From: Phycisphaerales bacterium
GTDB taxonomy: Bacteria > Planctomycetota > Phycisphaerae > Phycisphaerales > SM1A02
Assembly: GCA_029242715.1 (NCBI GenBank)
Contig: JAQWTL010000036.1
Coordinates: forward strand, 1 to 64,000
Length of the DNA stretch: 64,000 nucleotides
Direction: 5' to 3'
Under the pieces are notes generated by a model. It searched no databases. It saw nothing but the letters and a program-made list of their open reading frames with translations, and was not told the origin of the DNA. Both the position numbers and the translations under genes were made by a program. Positions 32,949 to 38,585 of this stretch are shown here, one piece after another (positions within the stretch are counted from its first letter, which is position 1; every line of letters starts with the position of its first letter).

Positions 32949-34043
32949 ATGCAACATTTGCTCGACCTGACACTGGAAGAGTTCCGGGATGCCTGTGTCG
33001 CCAATGACAGGCGGCCCTATGTAGCCGAACAGGTACTCGATTGGATTCACCGCAAGGGCACGACAGAATTCGACGCCATGACCAATGTGTCCAAATCGGA
33101 CCGGGAATGGCTGAAAGCTGCGTTTGTCATTTTCCGAAGCCGAATCGACAGGGCTCAGGTAGCAGGTGACGGCACCTTGAAAATCTTGCTCGGCTGGGAT
33201 CCCCCCGAAGAACACTCCGAAGATCACTCCTTGCCGCAAGCCGGCCAGAGTCCCCCGCTTCAACAGACCGAAACAGTCATGATCCCTGCCGCGAAACGAC
33301 GAACAGCCTGCGTGTCATCTCAGGTCGGATGCCCGGTTGGCTGTCGCTTCTGCGCTTCGGGACTGGGAGGCCTGGAAGGCAACCTCACGGCAGGACAGAT
33401 CGTGGAACAGGTCCTCAGGCTTTCTGAAGAAGAGGGTGTCGGTCGCATCACGAACGTTGTCTTCATGGGCATGGGCGAGCCACTGGCAAATGACAAGGCC
33501 GTGATGAAGGCCATTCGAATACTCAATGCTGACTGGGGGCCTGCTATCGGAGCGAGACATATCACGGTCTCAACCGTTGGTCTGCCCAAGGCAATCAGAC
33601 GATTCGCACGCTTTGATCTGCCCGTCACACTTGCCTTGAGTCTTCACGCCCCGAATGACCAACTCAGGCGGCTCCTGATCCCATGGGCCGAATACTCCAC
33701 AATCGATGAGTTGACCTCTGCATGCCAGGCCTGGTTCCTTGCCAGTGGCCGTGAAATAACACTGGAATACCTGCTCCTGAGAGAAGTCAATGATCGCACT
33801 GAGCACGCGAGGCAACTGGCGAAGATCGCCTCGACGCTTCGGGCCAGGATCAATCTCATTCGCTACAACGAGGTCAAGGGCTTGCCTTACCAGCGACCTT
33901 CTACGGTTGATGTCCGTGAATTCCAACGAATTCTTCGTCGCCATGGTGTCAATGCGACCATTCGTGCCAGTCGCGGCCGTGATATTGCAGCGGCATGCGG
34001 ACAATTGAGGCATGAGGCCCGCAAGCAACAGACAGAGTCATGA
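32949..34043 (+). CDS. rlmN: 23S rRNA (adenine-2503-C2)-methyltransferase
   Basis: A 364-residue radical-SAM enzyme methylating A2503 of 23S rRNA and A37 of some tRNAs. The cluster motif CPVGCRFCASG (~124-134, CxxxCxxC) follows the family-typical ACVSSQVG. Other landmarks are NVVFMGMGEPLAN, ITVSTVGLPK, LSLHAPND and INLIRYN. It begins 10 bp after ispH and ends in a 6-bp convergent overlap with the DUF4190-like gene. Confidence 0.94.
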   Translation: MQHLLDLTLEEFRDACVANDRRPYVAEQVLDWIHRKGTTEFDAMTNVSKSDREWLKAAFVIFRSRIDRAQVAGDGTLKILLGWDPPEEHSEDHSLPQAGQSPPLQQTETVMIPAAKRRTACVSSQVGCPVGCRFCASGLGGLEGNLTAGQIVEQVLRLSEEEGVGRITNVVFMGMGEPLANDKAVMKAIRILNADWGPAIGARHITVSTVGLPKAIRRFARFDLPVTLALSLHAPNDQLRRLLIPWAEYSTIDELTSACQAWFLASGREITLEYLLLREVNDRTEHARQLAKIASTLRARINLIRYNEVKGLPYQRPSTVDVREFQRILRRHGVNATIRASRGRDIAAACGQLRHEARKQQTES

Positions 34044-34340
34044 CCAGGGAACACTCGCCACGAGAATGACCAACCAGATCACGGTGCTGGCAGCTCCGAT
34101 GATCAAGGCCGCCATGCCGAGTATGGCACCGGCTCGGGAAAGCCCCTGCCCTTCAAGACGCTCGTCTTTTTGCATCTGGACGATAGCCTGCTGTGATCTG
34201 AAAAAAGCGAGCCAGCCGAGCATGAATCCAATGACCGGCACTACAGCAAGCGCAACTCCCAGGACTCCATAGACAACAGAGGGCGTTGCACTTGGAGCGA
34301 GCCCACGTTCTTCAGGTGATGCCGGATCAACTCTGGACAT
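34038..34340 (-). CDS. Small DUF4190-like membrane protein
   Basis: A 100-residue protein. I chose the ATG at 34340 (MSRVDPASPEERG), which overlaps the end of the upstream gene by 14 bp; the longer frame to 34571 lies antisense-like within that gene. Two hydrophobic segments (~21-45 and ~72-97) flank a polar hairpin, with GVLGVALAVVPVIGFMLGWLA and LSRAGAILGMAALIIGA typical of DUF4190 proteins (each quoted only in part here: GVLGVALAVV and SRAGAILGMAA). Function unknown. Confidence 0.65.
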   Translation of the reverse strand: MSRVDPASPEERGLAPSATPSVVYGVLGVALAVVPVIGFMLGWLAFFRSQQAIVQMQKDERLEGQGLSRAGAILGMAALIIGAASTVIWLVILVASVPWS

Positions 34341-37300
34341 GCAGTTGGGCCTCCAGCATCTCTCGGAGTCGTTCAGGATTGACTCTCCTGAGCCGCCCAT
34401 CAAGGGCCATGTCATGAAGCTCCGAAAGCGTTTCAAGCCAGCCTTCATAGTCGGAACTGGCCCCGGTACCAGCACGAAGCAGAATTTCCTGCACGAGCCT
34501 CCGCACCTGTCGATCTCGAGAAGTTCCTCTCCAACTTGAAGGCAGCAGTCGCCTGGCACCAGCCAAGGCACGTGCCATCCAGTCGCTGGTACGAAGATCG
34601 ACTCTGAATCGCCATCTCAGGAAAGTAAACTCGAGGCGAGTCAGATACCGCACTTCGACACGATCGCCACGGGCCAGGTGAACATTCAACCTCTGCCTTG
34701 TTTCACGACGATGCTCGCTGCTTATGGCCATGGAAGACAGATAAATTGAATCACGAGCAAGACAGGCTTCGGCCAATGGAAGAATGGCCTTGCGTGTCAA
34801 GGCTCGCCCTGTATCCGCTCGATCCACCCGATAGAGCGCTACGACGGAATCAGCAAATCGTTCCGCATAGTCAAATCCTCCCCAGGTCACGCAGCGGCGA
34901 AGTGCTACAGCAAGATCACGATGCGCCTCCCGACCTTCTGCAGTATCAGCCAACCCTGGAACATCAAAGAAGACTCGCTGGGTCAGACGATTGAATCTGG
35001 CGGATGACTCACGGGCACAAAAGCGAGACTTGCCCATGGGCGGCGTCCTCTGACGCCTCATGAACTGCTGTGCTGTTTCGGCATTGGGGTCTTCGCCAGG
35101 CCGACGCAATGATGCGGGATTTTCTGCGAACTCCCGGCCAAGTCGGAAAGCCTCAAGAGATCGAGCGTACCCAAGTGATTCGAGTTCACGAAGGGCCGAT
35201 TCAATGGCATCAGGACTCAATGGAACCGCACCAAGCTGAAACGCCGTTCCGAGTTGCGATAGATCAGCCAATCGCTCATTGTGAAATCGCCATCGGCACA
35301 GATCTGTGAAGTCTTCGACAACCTGCCCCTCAGGATGCAAGAGGGAACGGAAGTATTCCGCAATGTCCCCCACTGGCTGCGAAGCGACTTCTCTGTCCAG
35401 TTGATCCTCGAAGAGCCCGATGTTGATGACGCCACGAGTTCGTTGCTGGGATGCAACTCGGAGAGGTTCGTCAGGACTGACCGCCAGCAAACTTTCAACA
35501 CGATCAAGCCCAAGCATCAAGTCAGCCTCACCCCATGGAATCGTGGAACTGACCTGGGAGGATTCCCGTTCAGTACGAGGACGACTGAAGGACACCTGGG
35601 CCCAGGCACGACGGCCGGCACCAATAGGGCCAGGCAGCATGCGTGCATGGACGTGATAGCCCATTTTGGAACCTGCAAGCATCAAGGCTCTTGCGGCAAG
35701 GCCTGGTGAGGGCCCTCGCAGGCCTGCGATATGGACAGACCATGAGGGGGAATCAGCATGAACAGGAACTGGGGCAGGCAAGCCATCGCTACCACCTTCA
35801 TATTCCCTGATTGGTGGACGGCTTCGATGGACTTCGATCTGTTCAACCAGAAGCCGGATACGCCCCCCAAGGCGAGGTGGCCACCGCCATGCAAGCGTCT
35901 CACGACTCGATCTTGTTTCAACGGCCGCCGCATGGCGAACGGCTTCAACTTCCAGTTCCGCAAGCATTGGCGGCTGTCTGATGACACAAGCACGATCTGC
36001 TGGCCAGACGATGCGCTGCATTGGCTGAAAGCCTTGCTGATCAATCTCACTGAGCTCTGACTCGATGGCAGAGACATCGAATCGTGTTGGAGGCCCATCA
36101 TCAATAACAATTATGGTGAGCTCCGTTTCTGCCACTGCATCACGGATCATTTTTCGTAGTCGACTCGTTTCAGCAAGTGTCCCTCGTCGAATCTGCACTC
36201 GATCTGCATGGCCCTTGGGAACGGCGGCCTGGGCCAACCTCTCGAGATCTGCCCGATCCTGACCATGTGGCTGAGCGACGAGCAGAAGCCATGTGTCTCT
36301 TGAGCCCGCAGCCTGTCGTATGGCTGCAGAGCCGTGACGGAAGAAGCCTGGACCTGAAAAAGTCTCGATGTAGACATCACGACCTTCAGGTGGCCCAGAG
36401 GCCTCACCATCGATGAAGATACGAACAGGGCCCAGCTCTCGATGGGAGTCTTCCTTTTCGTCCTCGATGGTTTCAAGGTCATCCTGTTCCTGCTCCAGCA
36501 TTTCCGGAATGCCTTGTGCAATCCGGCGGATGGCTTCCTGTTGGCCAGCTGCGCCAAATCGTTCCATCAGAACAGGAACAGGGAGCGAGGGAGGCTCTGA
36601 CTGAAAATCCTGCTTCATCATTCCAGTGGTTGCCAGACCATGAATCACGTGCTGGAGGCGTCGAAGCAGGCGGGATGGGTGAAGTGCTTCTCGTTCATCG
36701 AGCCGCTGAGACTCCCCGCTTTCATCCGGCGGTAACCGGCGGCCCCATGTGAGCGCAGGTGATCCCCCTTTGCTCCGAAGGGATTCTGCTATCTGCAGCA
36801 CGATGTGCTCGATTGTTCCAGGCCTTGGCTCGAGAACAATGACGTTCTGGCATCTGTTCAGTATTCGAGTAATGGCTGCTTCATCGATTGGATGAAGCAG
36901 ACCAAGGTGAAGGACCGGAAGCCGGCCACTGATCCCAAGCATGGTGGCCATGTGCTGCAGGCAACGGTCAGCAGGTCCCACAGTGATGAATCCCCAGGAC
37001 ACAGCCTCGCCTGGAGACGGCATTGAACGCCATGAATTCAGTTCGAGACGGCGAGCCATGCGCAAAGGCCCACCCGTCTCCTGCCATCTTGGTCTACGAC
37101 GTCGTCTTACCCGGTCCTGATCATCAGGTTCCTCTTCGCCACGGTTCGGCCTCAGCGCTACGGTTTCCGAGCTTCGGAGAATACTTCGATCAACAACAAC
37201 AGCAGCTACTCCCCTTGCGGATCGACTGATCCGAAGGACGTTTTCAACAGAATCACGCAGATGAGGGACATCACAGGCTTCGAGCAATGGAAGCCCTTGT

Positions 37301-37728
37301 CTGGCCAGTCGACCGCGAATATCGACGGCAGATCTGTTCAGGGCAAGGTCTTCCACGATAAGGCCAAGTGCAGCACCATCAGGCAAAGGCTTGGTAGCAG
37401 CCTCAAGAAGATTCAACGCCCCTGGGACCGTTGGGCCAGTCAGAATAGCCACGACATGCTGGCCTCTTCGTGCGGCCCATGCAGCAAGCAGCGCCGCTCG
37501 GCCAGCATCAGCCATTGGCTCGACCTGAAGACGGTGCATGCGAAGCAACTCCGCGGTTTCTGGATCGGCACAGATTCGATCAATATCAGCAGTTGCCTGA
37601 GAAGCGACATAGATCAGGCGATGAACACTCGGGAGGCACTCGAGGGTGGCTTTGAGCATGGCTTCAGCAGCAGAAAGCGTGGCTGTCCCCGTGTGCTTCC
37701 AAAGAGGATGTTCAATCGTCTTGCTCAT
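34327..37728 (-). CDS. Degenerate fused indolepyruvate:ferredoxin oxidoreductase-like protein
   Basis: A 1133-residue protein; the ATG at 37728 overlaps the HAD stop (ATGA), whereas the longer frame starts from TTG at 37734. The layout follows fused IorA/IorB enzymes. Residues ~15-150 resemble the pyrimidine-binding domain. Residues ~243-330 (WGFITVGPADRC, VLHLGLLHPIDEAAI, NVIVLEPRP) resemble the IorA linker domain. Around 458, FSGPGFFRHGS takes the place of the TPP-domain GDSTFxHSG. Residues ~664-755 (IAGLRGPSPGLAARAL, ADLMLGLDRVESL) resemble the gamma subunit. The region beyond ~870 resembles the C-terminal region of the fused enzymes. No CxxCxxC ferredoxin motif and no GDG TPP motif are visible, so normal catalysis is doubtful. 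Confidence 0.7.
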   Translation of the reverse strand: MSKTIEHPLWKHTGTATLSAAEAMLKATLECLPSVHRLIYVASQATADIDRICADPETAELLRMHRLQVEPMADAGRAALLAAWAARRGQHVVAILTGPTVPGALNLLEAATKPLPDGAALGLIVEDLALNRSAVDIRGRLARQGLPLLEACDVPHLRDSVENVLRISRSARGVAAVVVDRSILRSSETVALRPNRGEEEPDDQDRVRRRRRPRWQETGGPLRMARRLELNSWRSMPSPGEAVSWGFITVGPADRCLQHMATMLGISGRLPVLHLGLLHPIDEAAITRILNRCQNVIVLEPRPGTIEHIVLQIAESLRSKGGSPALTWGRRLPPDESGESQRLDEREALHPSRLLRRLQHVIHGLATTGMMKQDFQSEPPSLPVPVLMERFGAAGQQEAIRRIAQGIPEMLEQEQDDLETIEDEKEDSHRELGPVRIFIDGEASGPPEGRDVYIETFSGPGFFRHGSAAIRQAAGSRDTWLLLVAQPHGQDRADLERLAQAAVPKGHADRVQIRRGTLAETSRLRKMIRDAVAETELTIIVIDDGPPTRFDVSAIESELSEIDQQGFQPMQRIVWPADRACVIRQPPMLAELEVEAVRHAAAVETRSSRETLAWRWPPRLGGRIRLLVEQIEVHRSRPPIREYEGGSDGLPAPVPVHADSPSWSVHIAGLRGPSPGLAARALMLAGSKMGYHVHARMLPGPIGAGRRAWAQVSFSRPRTERESSQVSSTIPWGEADLMLGLDRVESLLAVSPDEPLRVASQQRTRGVINIGLFEDQLDREVASQPVGDIAEYFRSLLHPEGQVVEDFTDLCRWRFHNERLADLSQLGTAFQLGAVPLSPDAIESALRELESLGYARSLEAFRLGREFAENPASLRRPGEDPNAETAQQFMRRQRTPPMGKSRFCARESSARFNRLTQRVFFDVPGLADTAEGREAHRDLAVALRRCVTWGGFDYAERFADSVVALYRVDRADTGRALTRKAILPLAEACLARDSIYLSSMAISSEHRRETRQRLNVHLARGDRVEVRYLTRLEFTFLRWRFRVDLRTSDWMARALAGARRLLPSSWRGTSRDRQVRRLVQEILLRAGTGASSDYEGWLETLSELHDMALDGRLRRVNPERLREMLEAQLHVQS

Positions 37729-38585
37729 GCCCAACCTTTCAAAAGACGATCGACCGCATGGGCAACACCATCCTTGGTGTGACAGAGTGTGTGAGCATCT
37801 GCCGCATTGCGCACCACCTCTTCGGCGTTTTCTACCGCAATTCCGAAGCCGACTCCGGCAAGTAACTGGATGTCATTGAGCCCGTCGCCAATGGCAGCAA
37901 CGCGATCATGCGGAATCGACTTCTGGATGCAGTACCGGTTGACCATTGTCCATTTGTCAACACCAGCTCCGAACACCTCCAGCATGTGAACATGTTCACC
38001 TTCTGGACCTACTGCCGGCCAGTGTCGCCACGACACTCGATCGCCCAGTCTTTCGCCTACGGTATGCGCGGCGGCCTCCATCAGCTTCGGATCTCCGATG
38101 CTCGCAACTCGCAGGGTGTGACCTGGATCAGTGTCTTCTGAAGAACGCTCCGCGAATCGCATGGTGATGTCATGCCGTTCAAACCACCATTGCGAAACAG
38201 GGTGAAGGTCGTCTTCGCCGATCACCAGATAGTCATAGCCGACCGCGTCGCGGTCCTTGAGAAGAAGCGCGGAGCATTGATGCGATCTCGCCGCCTCAGT
38301 GATCGAGACCACATCATCAGAATCCATTTGATCTCGAATGAGCGTCCTGCCAGATGGCCAGTCAACAAGGGCTGCCCCGCTGGCACTCACCATCGGACCG
38401 GCATAATCAATCGACCTCAGGATCTCGCTGCATTCTGCATGCGTCCGACCAGTGGCAATCATGACCTCGATACCGGCATTCCTGGCATCTGCCAGAGCCC
38501 GGCGATTCGGACCAGAGACCTCACCACGGGGGCACAGAAGCGTCCCATCAAGATCCAGGACCAGTAGTTCTGGTGCGCCATTCAT
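37725..38585 (-). CDS. HAD superfamily (Cof-type) phosphatase
   Basis: A 286-residue phosphohydrolase. The ATG at 38585 (MNGAPELLVLDLDGTLL) matches the family N-terminus; the 92-residue extension in the longer frame overlaps the divergent kinase promoter and start. Motif I is DLDGTLL (~10-16), motif II is IATGRT (~48-53), and the C-terminal motif is AAIGDGLNDIQLL (~232-244). Cof-type HADs dephosphorylate sugar phosphates, pyridoxal phosphate or flavins; the substrate is not readable. Its stop overlaps the start of the IOR-like gene, so they are coupled. Confidence 0.88.
   Translation of the reverse strand: MNGAPELLVLDLDGTLLCPRGEVSGPNRRALADARNAGIEVMIATGRTHAECSEILRSIDYAGPMVSASGAALVDWPSGRTLIRDQMDSDDVVSITEAARSHQCSALLLKDRDAVGYDYLVIGEDDLHPVSQWWFERHDITMRFAERSSEDTDPGHTLRVASIGDPKLMEAAAHTVGERLGDRVSWRHWPAVGPEGEHVHMLEVFGAGVDKWTMVNRYCIQKSIPHDRVAAIGDGLNDIQLLAGVGFGIAVENAEEVVRNAADAHTLCHTKDGVAHAVDRLLKGWA

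Follow-up and report, generated by a model that had tools for sequence, protein, structure and literature searches.

Few redox enzymes are as old or as thoroughly studied as the 2-oxoacid:ferredoxin oxidoreductases (OFORs). The fused indolepyruvate-type members (IORs; PRK13030/PRK13029), which include intact Phycisphaerales enzymes of ~1220 to 1330 aa, have a common domain order, I-II-VI-V-III, with a DUF6537 C terminus. In the solved Sulfolobus OFOR structures, Mg-TPP is held by a GDG motif together with an Asn, TPP activation depends on a Glu, and a CXGC loop supplies ligands to the proximal cluster (PMC5020499).

Here we analyze a gene in a 64,000-nucleotide stretch of Phycisphaerales DNA (the window), which an earlier note had described as a degenerate homologue of the fused IORs. 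Its product, to which we refer as pseudo-OFOR, has the domain order and C terminus of the fused IOR family but, unlike its members, is without the TPP/Mg loop, the catalytic Glu, and any of the three [4Fe-4S] ligand sets; its domain VI is also shorter, and the conserved gamma loop is different. Domains I, II, III, and VI of the Sulfolobus tokodaii OFOR correspond to those of pseudo-OFOR by homology via the intact family, whereas the TPP-Mg residues of that enzyme (GDG at 89b to 91b, Asn118b, and Glu294a) and its CXGC cluster motif are all absent (PMC5020499). The OFOR family itself is known, and the novel part is pseudo-OFOR; a literature search, with coverage short of most subscription papers, found no description of such cofactor-less OFOR-like proteins.

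Gene structure and OFOR ancestry

The pseudo-OFOR reading frame is uninterrupted, as the earlier note had held, and lies on the minus strand (Table 1); the plus-strand reading of the same interval contains many stops.

Table 1. Features of the pseudo-OFOR locus, with positions in the window
Feature	Position	Strand	Basis
Pseudo-OFOR (IOR-like) gene, 1133 aa; ATG at 37728, stop at 34327	34327..37728	-	Open reading frame; end-to-end profile match to intact fused OFORs; AlphaFold model
Domain I (TPP pyrimidine-type) remnant, residues 1-200; catalytic Glu replaced by Ala75 (37504-37506)	37129..37728	-	Weak match to TPP N-terminal domains, E=0.03; alignment
Domain II-like, residues 222-350, best retained; PSPGE...GFITVG...GRLPVL	36679..37065	-	KOR alpha 1yd7, E=0.03; alignment
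Eroded TPP-binding domain VI, residues 431-546; N-terminal Cys-bearing part partly deleted	36091..36438	-	Alignment
SGPGFFRHG, residues 458-466, where GDGTFxHSG stands in intact enzymes	36331..36357	-	Alignment
Ferredoxin-like domain V position, residues 579-625; Cys lost in 6/7 columns, Cys581 remains	35854..35994	-	Alignment
Gamma (domain III, POR-like), residues 657-800, retained; Gly-rich loop GVGGMG changed to GLRGPS	35329..35760	-	Family match; alignment
C-terminal DUF6537-like region, residues 801-1133, retained, Arg-rich	34330..35328	-	PF20169, E=0.07; clear in relatives
Cof-type HAD phosphatase directly upstream; 4-nt overlap (ATGA) with the pseudo-OFOR start	37725..38564	-	PF08282, E=3e-44

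Searches with the single sequence reveal the relationship only faintly. Against NCBIfam, pseudo-OFOR matches PRK13030 (E=7.4e-15) with 53.7 bits relative to a cut-off of 816, a cut-off that the intact Phycisphaerales fused OFORs likewise fail to reach; in Pfam no family scores above its cut-off, DUF6537 included, and a PDB sequence search matched no solved structure. Comparison of profiles, however, gives a strong result: hhalign aligns a profile of the family to which the window belongs (f1; 43 sequences) with a profile of the intact enzymes (21 sequences) over 1072 columns (E=1e-111), so that the HMM check proposed in the earlier note, faint by single sequence, is strong by profile-profile alignment. 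The end-to-end match recovers the fused-IOR order I-II-VI-V-III(-DUF6537), and with it the alpha, linker, and gamma layout that had been proposed. The f1 profile also aligns with those of two further groups of cofactor-less homologues described below, family f4 (5e-82) and genus g47 (3e-73). Its matches to solved structures are weak (E of about 0.03), with TPP N-terminal domains at residues 59 to 190 and a keto acid:ferredoxin oxidoreductase alpha subunit at 247 to 311, and at the level of sequence similarity are consistent with domains I and II. An AlphaFold model of pseudo-OFOR is a confident alpha/beta structure, with a pLDDT of 85.6 and a pTM of 0.82. The profile alignments show, as far as sequence comparison can, that pseudo-OFOR is a descendant of a single-chain indolepyruvate-type OFOR.

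Loss of the TPP and iron-sulfur sites

Of the 23 intact homologues, nearly all conserve Glu71, GDG, Asn534, and 11 Cys, and the spacing from GDG to Asn in the intact Phycisphaerales enzymes (29) is the same as in Sulfolobus. By motif, four of the 11 invariant Cys presumably belong to the proximal cluster and seven to a two-cluster ferredoxin domain. In pseudo-OFOR, Ala75 aligns with the catalytic Glu71, the TPP/Mg loop GDGTF[FY]HSG has become SGPGFFRHG (GDG to SGP), and the Mg-binding Asn534 is absent. All four proximal [4Fe-4S] ligands (a CxxC plus two Cys; C419, C422, C463, and C613) are gone, together with six of the seven Cys of the ferredoxin-like domain (CxxCxxCx5C and Cx5Cx5C). Alignment to intact relatives thus bears out both the missing CxxCxxC motifs and the altered TPP loop, aligned to GDGTFYHSG, to which the earlier note had pointed. 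The same losses of Glu, GDG, Asn, and the 11 Cys extend to the copies of f1, f4, and g47, save for one isolated Cys in f1, and throughout f1 the gamma-loop glycines are replaced by Arg.

With the TPP/Mg site, the ylide-activating Glu, and the ligands of three [4Fe-4S] sites lost, the OFOR reaction should be impossible, and judging from these residues it has almost certainly been lost in pseudo-OFOR. It is very improbable that unusual cofactor binding, or domains acting in trans, restore the reaction: the overall architecture is kept, and glyoxylate carboligase offers a precedent for a TPP enzyme without the Glu (so the title of a reference in PMC5020499), but in pseudo-OFOR the Glu was lost along with GDG, the Asn, and the Cys ligands, and roughly one in four domain VI columns is a gap in the alignment. 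The term pseudo-enzyme, as used in the earlier note, is justified for the OFOR reaction, since homology, loss of the catalytic residues, and purifying selection (see below) are all found.

Two copies from family f6 depart from the intact loop, with GDAAYFHTG in one (L044) and GQGTFGHSG in the other (L114), and still have all 11 Cys and the Glu; by sequence they look like early stages of cofactor-site loss.

Distribution and history

A search of relatives found homologues in 51 of 61 genomes, and these are of two kinds, intact and cofactor-less. Families f5 and f7 and most of the matching f6 genomes encode proteins of ~1220 to 1330 aa with GDGTF[FY]HSG (or close variants) and CExCLEC; the proteins of f1, f4, and genus g47 of f6 are ~1030 to 1210 aa long (a few f1 frames read longer owing to upstream start codons) and have neither motif. 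Within f1 the gene is near-universal and usually single-copy. A protein search found a copy in 35 of the 36 other genomes of the same genus or family, with frames open almost everywhere, and a family search across 201 genomes of the order gave a match in 74/74 f1 genomes, including those of ~1.8 to 2.0 Mb; this last count is of family matches, and the absence of the motifs is known for the copies read individually. Among the f1 matches listed, most sit in an open frame of about 1050 to 1550 codons. The named records of a second collection are Phycisphaerales/Planctomycetota metagenome-assembled genomes, and many have isolate names that indicate a marine source.

A maximum-likelihood tree separates f1, f4, and g47 as a set from the remaining sequences by a branch with an SH-aLRT of 99. 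Pseudo-OFOR therefore does not belong to a normal IOR clade with an alternative cofactor site, because it lies outside the intact clade and in the company of other cofactor-less copies. A long-branch artefact driven by the dead catalytic columns was considered and rejected, as a tree of the gamma and C-terminal regions still needs one change between intact and cofactor-less. Because the branches are long, a single loss of the cofactor sites is likely, not proven; one event probably lies behind the f1, f4, and g47 copies on this phylogeny. The f4 and g47 homologues, the nearest tree relatives of f1, have the architecture and the losses seen in f1 but differ in their gene neighborhoods, and identity to f1 is about 11 to 36% per domain.

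Other OFOR-type genes can accompany pseudo-OFOR in the same genome. One f1 genome (L120; G013:C90) encodes, in addition to its cofactor-less copy, a fused IOR of another kind, in which GDSTFFHSG and two CxxCxxC motifs are present. The window's genome has a separate gene with POR gamma and POR_N alpha domains (KOR-like; G000:C30:41795-43162), and OFOR chemistry has therefore probably not been lost from the cell.

Selection and the pattern of conservation

Within the genus, dN/dS of pseudo-OFOR is 0.05 to 0.14 (pairs with unsaturated dS), and it is similarly low inside the former TPP region. These values show strong purifying selection and, together with the 35/36 and 74/74 retention, confirm the view of the earlier note that the gene is maintained. 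They also contradict decay to a pseudogene, as do the frames that are open almost everywhere, and we regard that explanation as scarcely credible; it draws on one genome, G003 (L006/L056), the only genus member seen with a copy split by an in-frame TAG (752 plus 386 aa), a split that could stem from genuine loss or from a sequencing error. Pseudo-OFOR diverges faster than its neighbors RlmN and IspH and about as fast as HAD and MurF.

Conservation in f1 is inverted. The domains that are most conserved among intact enzymes (mean identities of 77% for V, 74% for VI, and 69% for I) are the most eroded between f1 and the intact enzymes (14%, 16%, and 19%, respectively), and those best kept are II (31%), gamma/III (31%), and the C-terminal DUF6537 region (25%). 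The f4 and g47 proteins follow the f1-like trend for domains V and II, and in g47 the TPP-domain region (28%) is no more eroded than gamma or the C terminus (29% and 30%).

The f1 proteins have also gained 35 near-invariant positions, 14 of them Arg, including R671, R706, H666, W709, E734, R812, and R819. These residues, and the Arg substituted for the gamma-loop glycines, would fit a neofunctionalized enzyme in which the TPP center is dead and a new active site, for example at the gamma loop (RG..PG, GRRAW) or the Arg-rich C terminus, handles an anionic metabolite. We consider such an enzyme rather unlikely; Pfam and NCBIfam searches recognized no known catalytic motif, and only one derived position is common to f1, f4, and g47. 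The absence of the f1-specific residues from f4 and g47 makes it unlikely that the three groups share one new chemistry.

Gene neighborhood

The f1 gene is part of a conserved block, MurF-MraY/RluD-TPR-APH/HAD-[gene]/RlmN-IspH/HpnC-D-E, consisting mostly of housekeeping genes, and the synteny therefore reflects descent more than function. In f4 the cofactor-less gene is in most cases flanked by genes for a membrane protein and a Rho-type ATPase, and in g47 its neighbors are a ketoacyl synthase and a giant E1-E1-lipoyl-KASIII fusion. Neighborhood comparison found no partner gene common to the f1, f4, and g47 loci.

The coupling to neighbors that the earlier note had reported is seen in the overlap of the pseudo-OFOR ATG with the stop of the upstream HAD gene. 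HAD adjoins pseudo-OFOR in most f1 loci, with the ATGA overlap in 18 of 38 measured and with HAD inverted in three. HAD was rejected as an obligate partner: its family is spread throughout the order, it is unlinked in two genomes (G014 and G006), and three others (G017, G028, and G034) have no close HAD copy despite having pseudo-OFOR.

Just downstream of pseudo-OFOR is a 92-aa reading frame (window 34038-34316, minus strand), which has no family match above cut-off; similar sequence is present in five close relatives, probably of the same genus.

The E1-E1-lipoyl-KASIII fusion of g47, about 1170 aa, comprises E1 alpha, E1 beta/transketolase, lipoyl, and ketoacyl-ACP synthase III parts (L117:6288-9812; also L045, L115, and L116; G041 and G053), and it adjoins a KAS-like gene and the cofactor-less OFOR. 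Judged by its domains, the fusion seems to convert a 2-oxoacid into a fatty-acid starter unit within a single chain.

Its position next to the g47 gene would suit a role for pseudo-OFOR as a partner that regulates, or lends structure to, an active 2-oxoacid enzyme of the same cell (a separate alpha/gamma OFOR of the KOR type, for example, or the E1 complexes of the PDH/branched-chain type), as would the KOR-type alpha/gamma gene kept in the window's genome and the E1 components found in all f1 genomes sampled. The f1 and f4 genes, however, are near no 2-oxoacid enzyme, and we find a partnership of this kind improbable.

Two causes proposed for the loss were rejected. Replacement by E1 (PDH-type) enzymes shows only a partial correlation: matches to E1 components are mostly weak or missing in the f5 genomes, which have intact OFORs, but E1 and the intact OFOR coexist in many f6 genomes. 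A switch to aerobic life finds no support, since 200 of 201 genomes have COX1, those with an intact OFOR among them.

Discussion

The ancestor of pseudo-OFOR would have been a fused OFOR of the order I-II-VI-V-III-DUF6537, from which TPP/Mg binding, the Glu, and the three [4Fe-4S] sites were then lost. We propose that the OFOR-like multidomain fold was kept despite this loss, and that the protein acts through domain II, gamma, and the DUF6537 region, with their clade-specific conserved Arg and Glu residues, perhaps as a non-redox scaffold or sensor that binds a protein or a ligand. The job of this giant planctomycete pseudo-OFOR probably differs from that of OFOR and is non-redox. More specifically, we lean toward a protein under purifying selection that works as a non-redox scaffold or sensor through its retained domains. 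Counting against this reading are the lack of a neighbor common to the three cofactor-less groups, the HAD neighbor, which is not obligatory, and the g47 TPP-domain region, which is not additionally eroded. The main rival to a scaffold or sensor is a new enzymatic activity, and the loss of the known motifs leaves room for new chemistry. A broader proposal, in which an order-wide cofactor-less OFOR lineage has taken on a new, essential-like function (as a non-redox scaffold or sensor or as a new enzyme) and domains II and III and DUF6537 have an unrecognized role of their own, is plausible but on balance somewhat doubtful.

For annotation, such genes may be called 'indolepyruvate ferredoxin oxidoreductase', and a pathway step would then be wrongly credited to these bacteria. 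For the family, f1 provides a natural separation of catalysis from the remaining protein, in that a 125-kDa shell is kept in every sampled member and the TPP and iron-sulfur sites are discarded. Pseudo-OFOR thereby points to the gamma and DUF6537 regions as having a function, one that is testable both here and in the intact enzymes.
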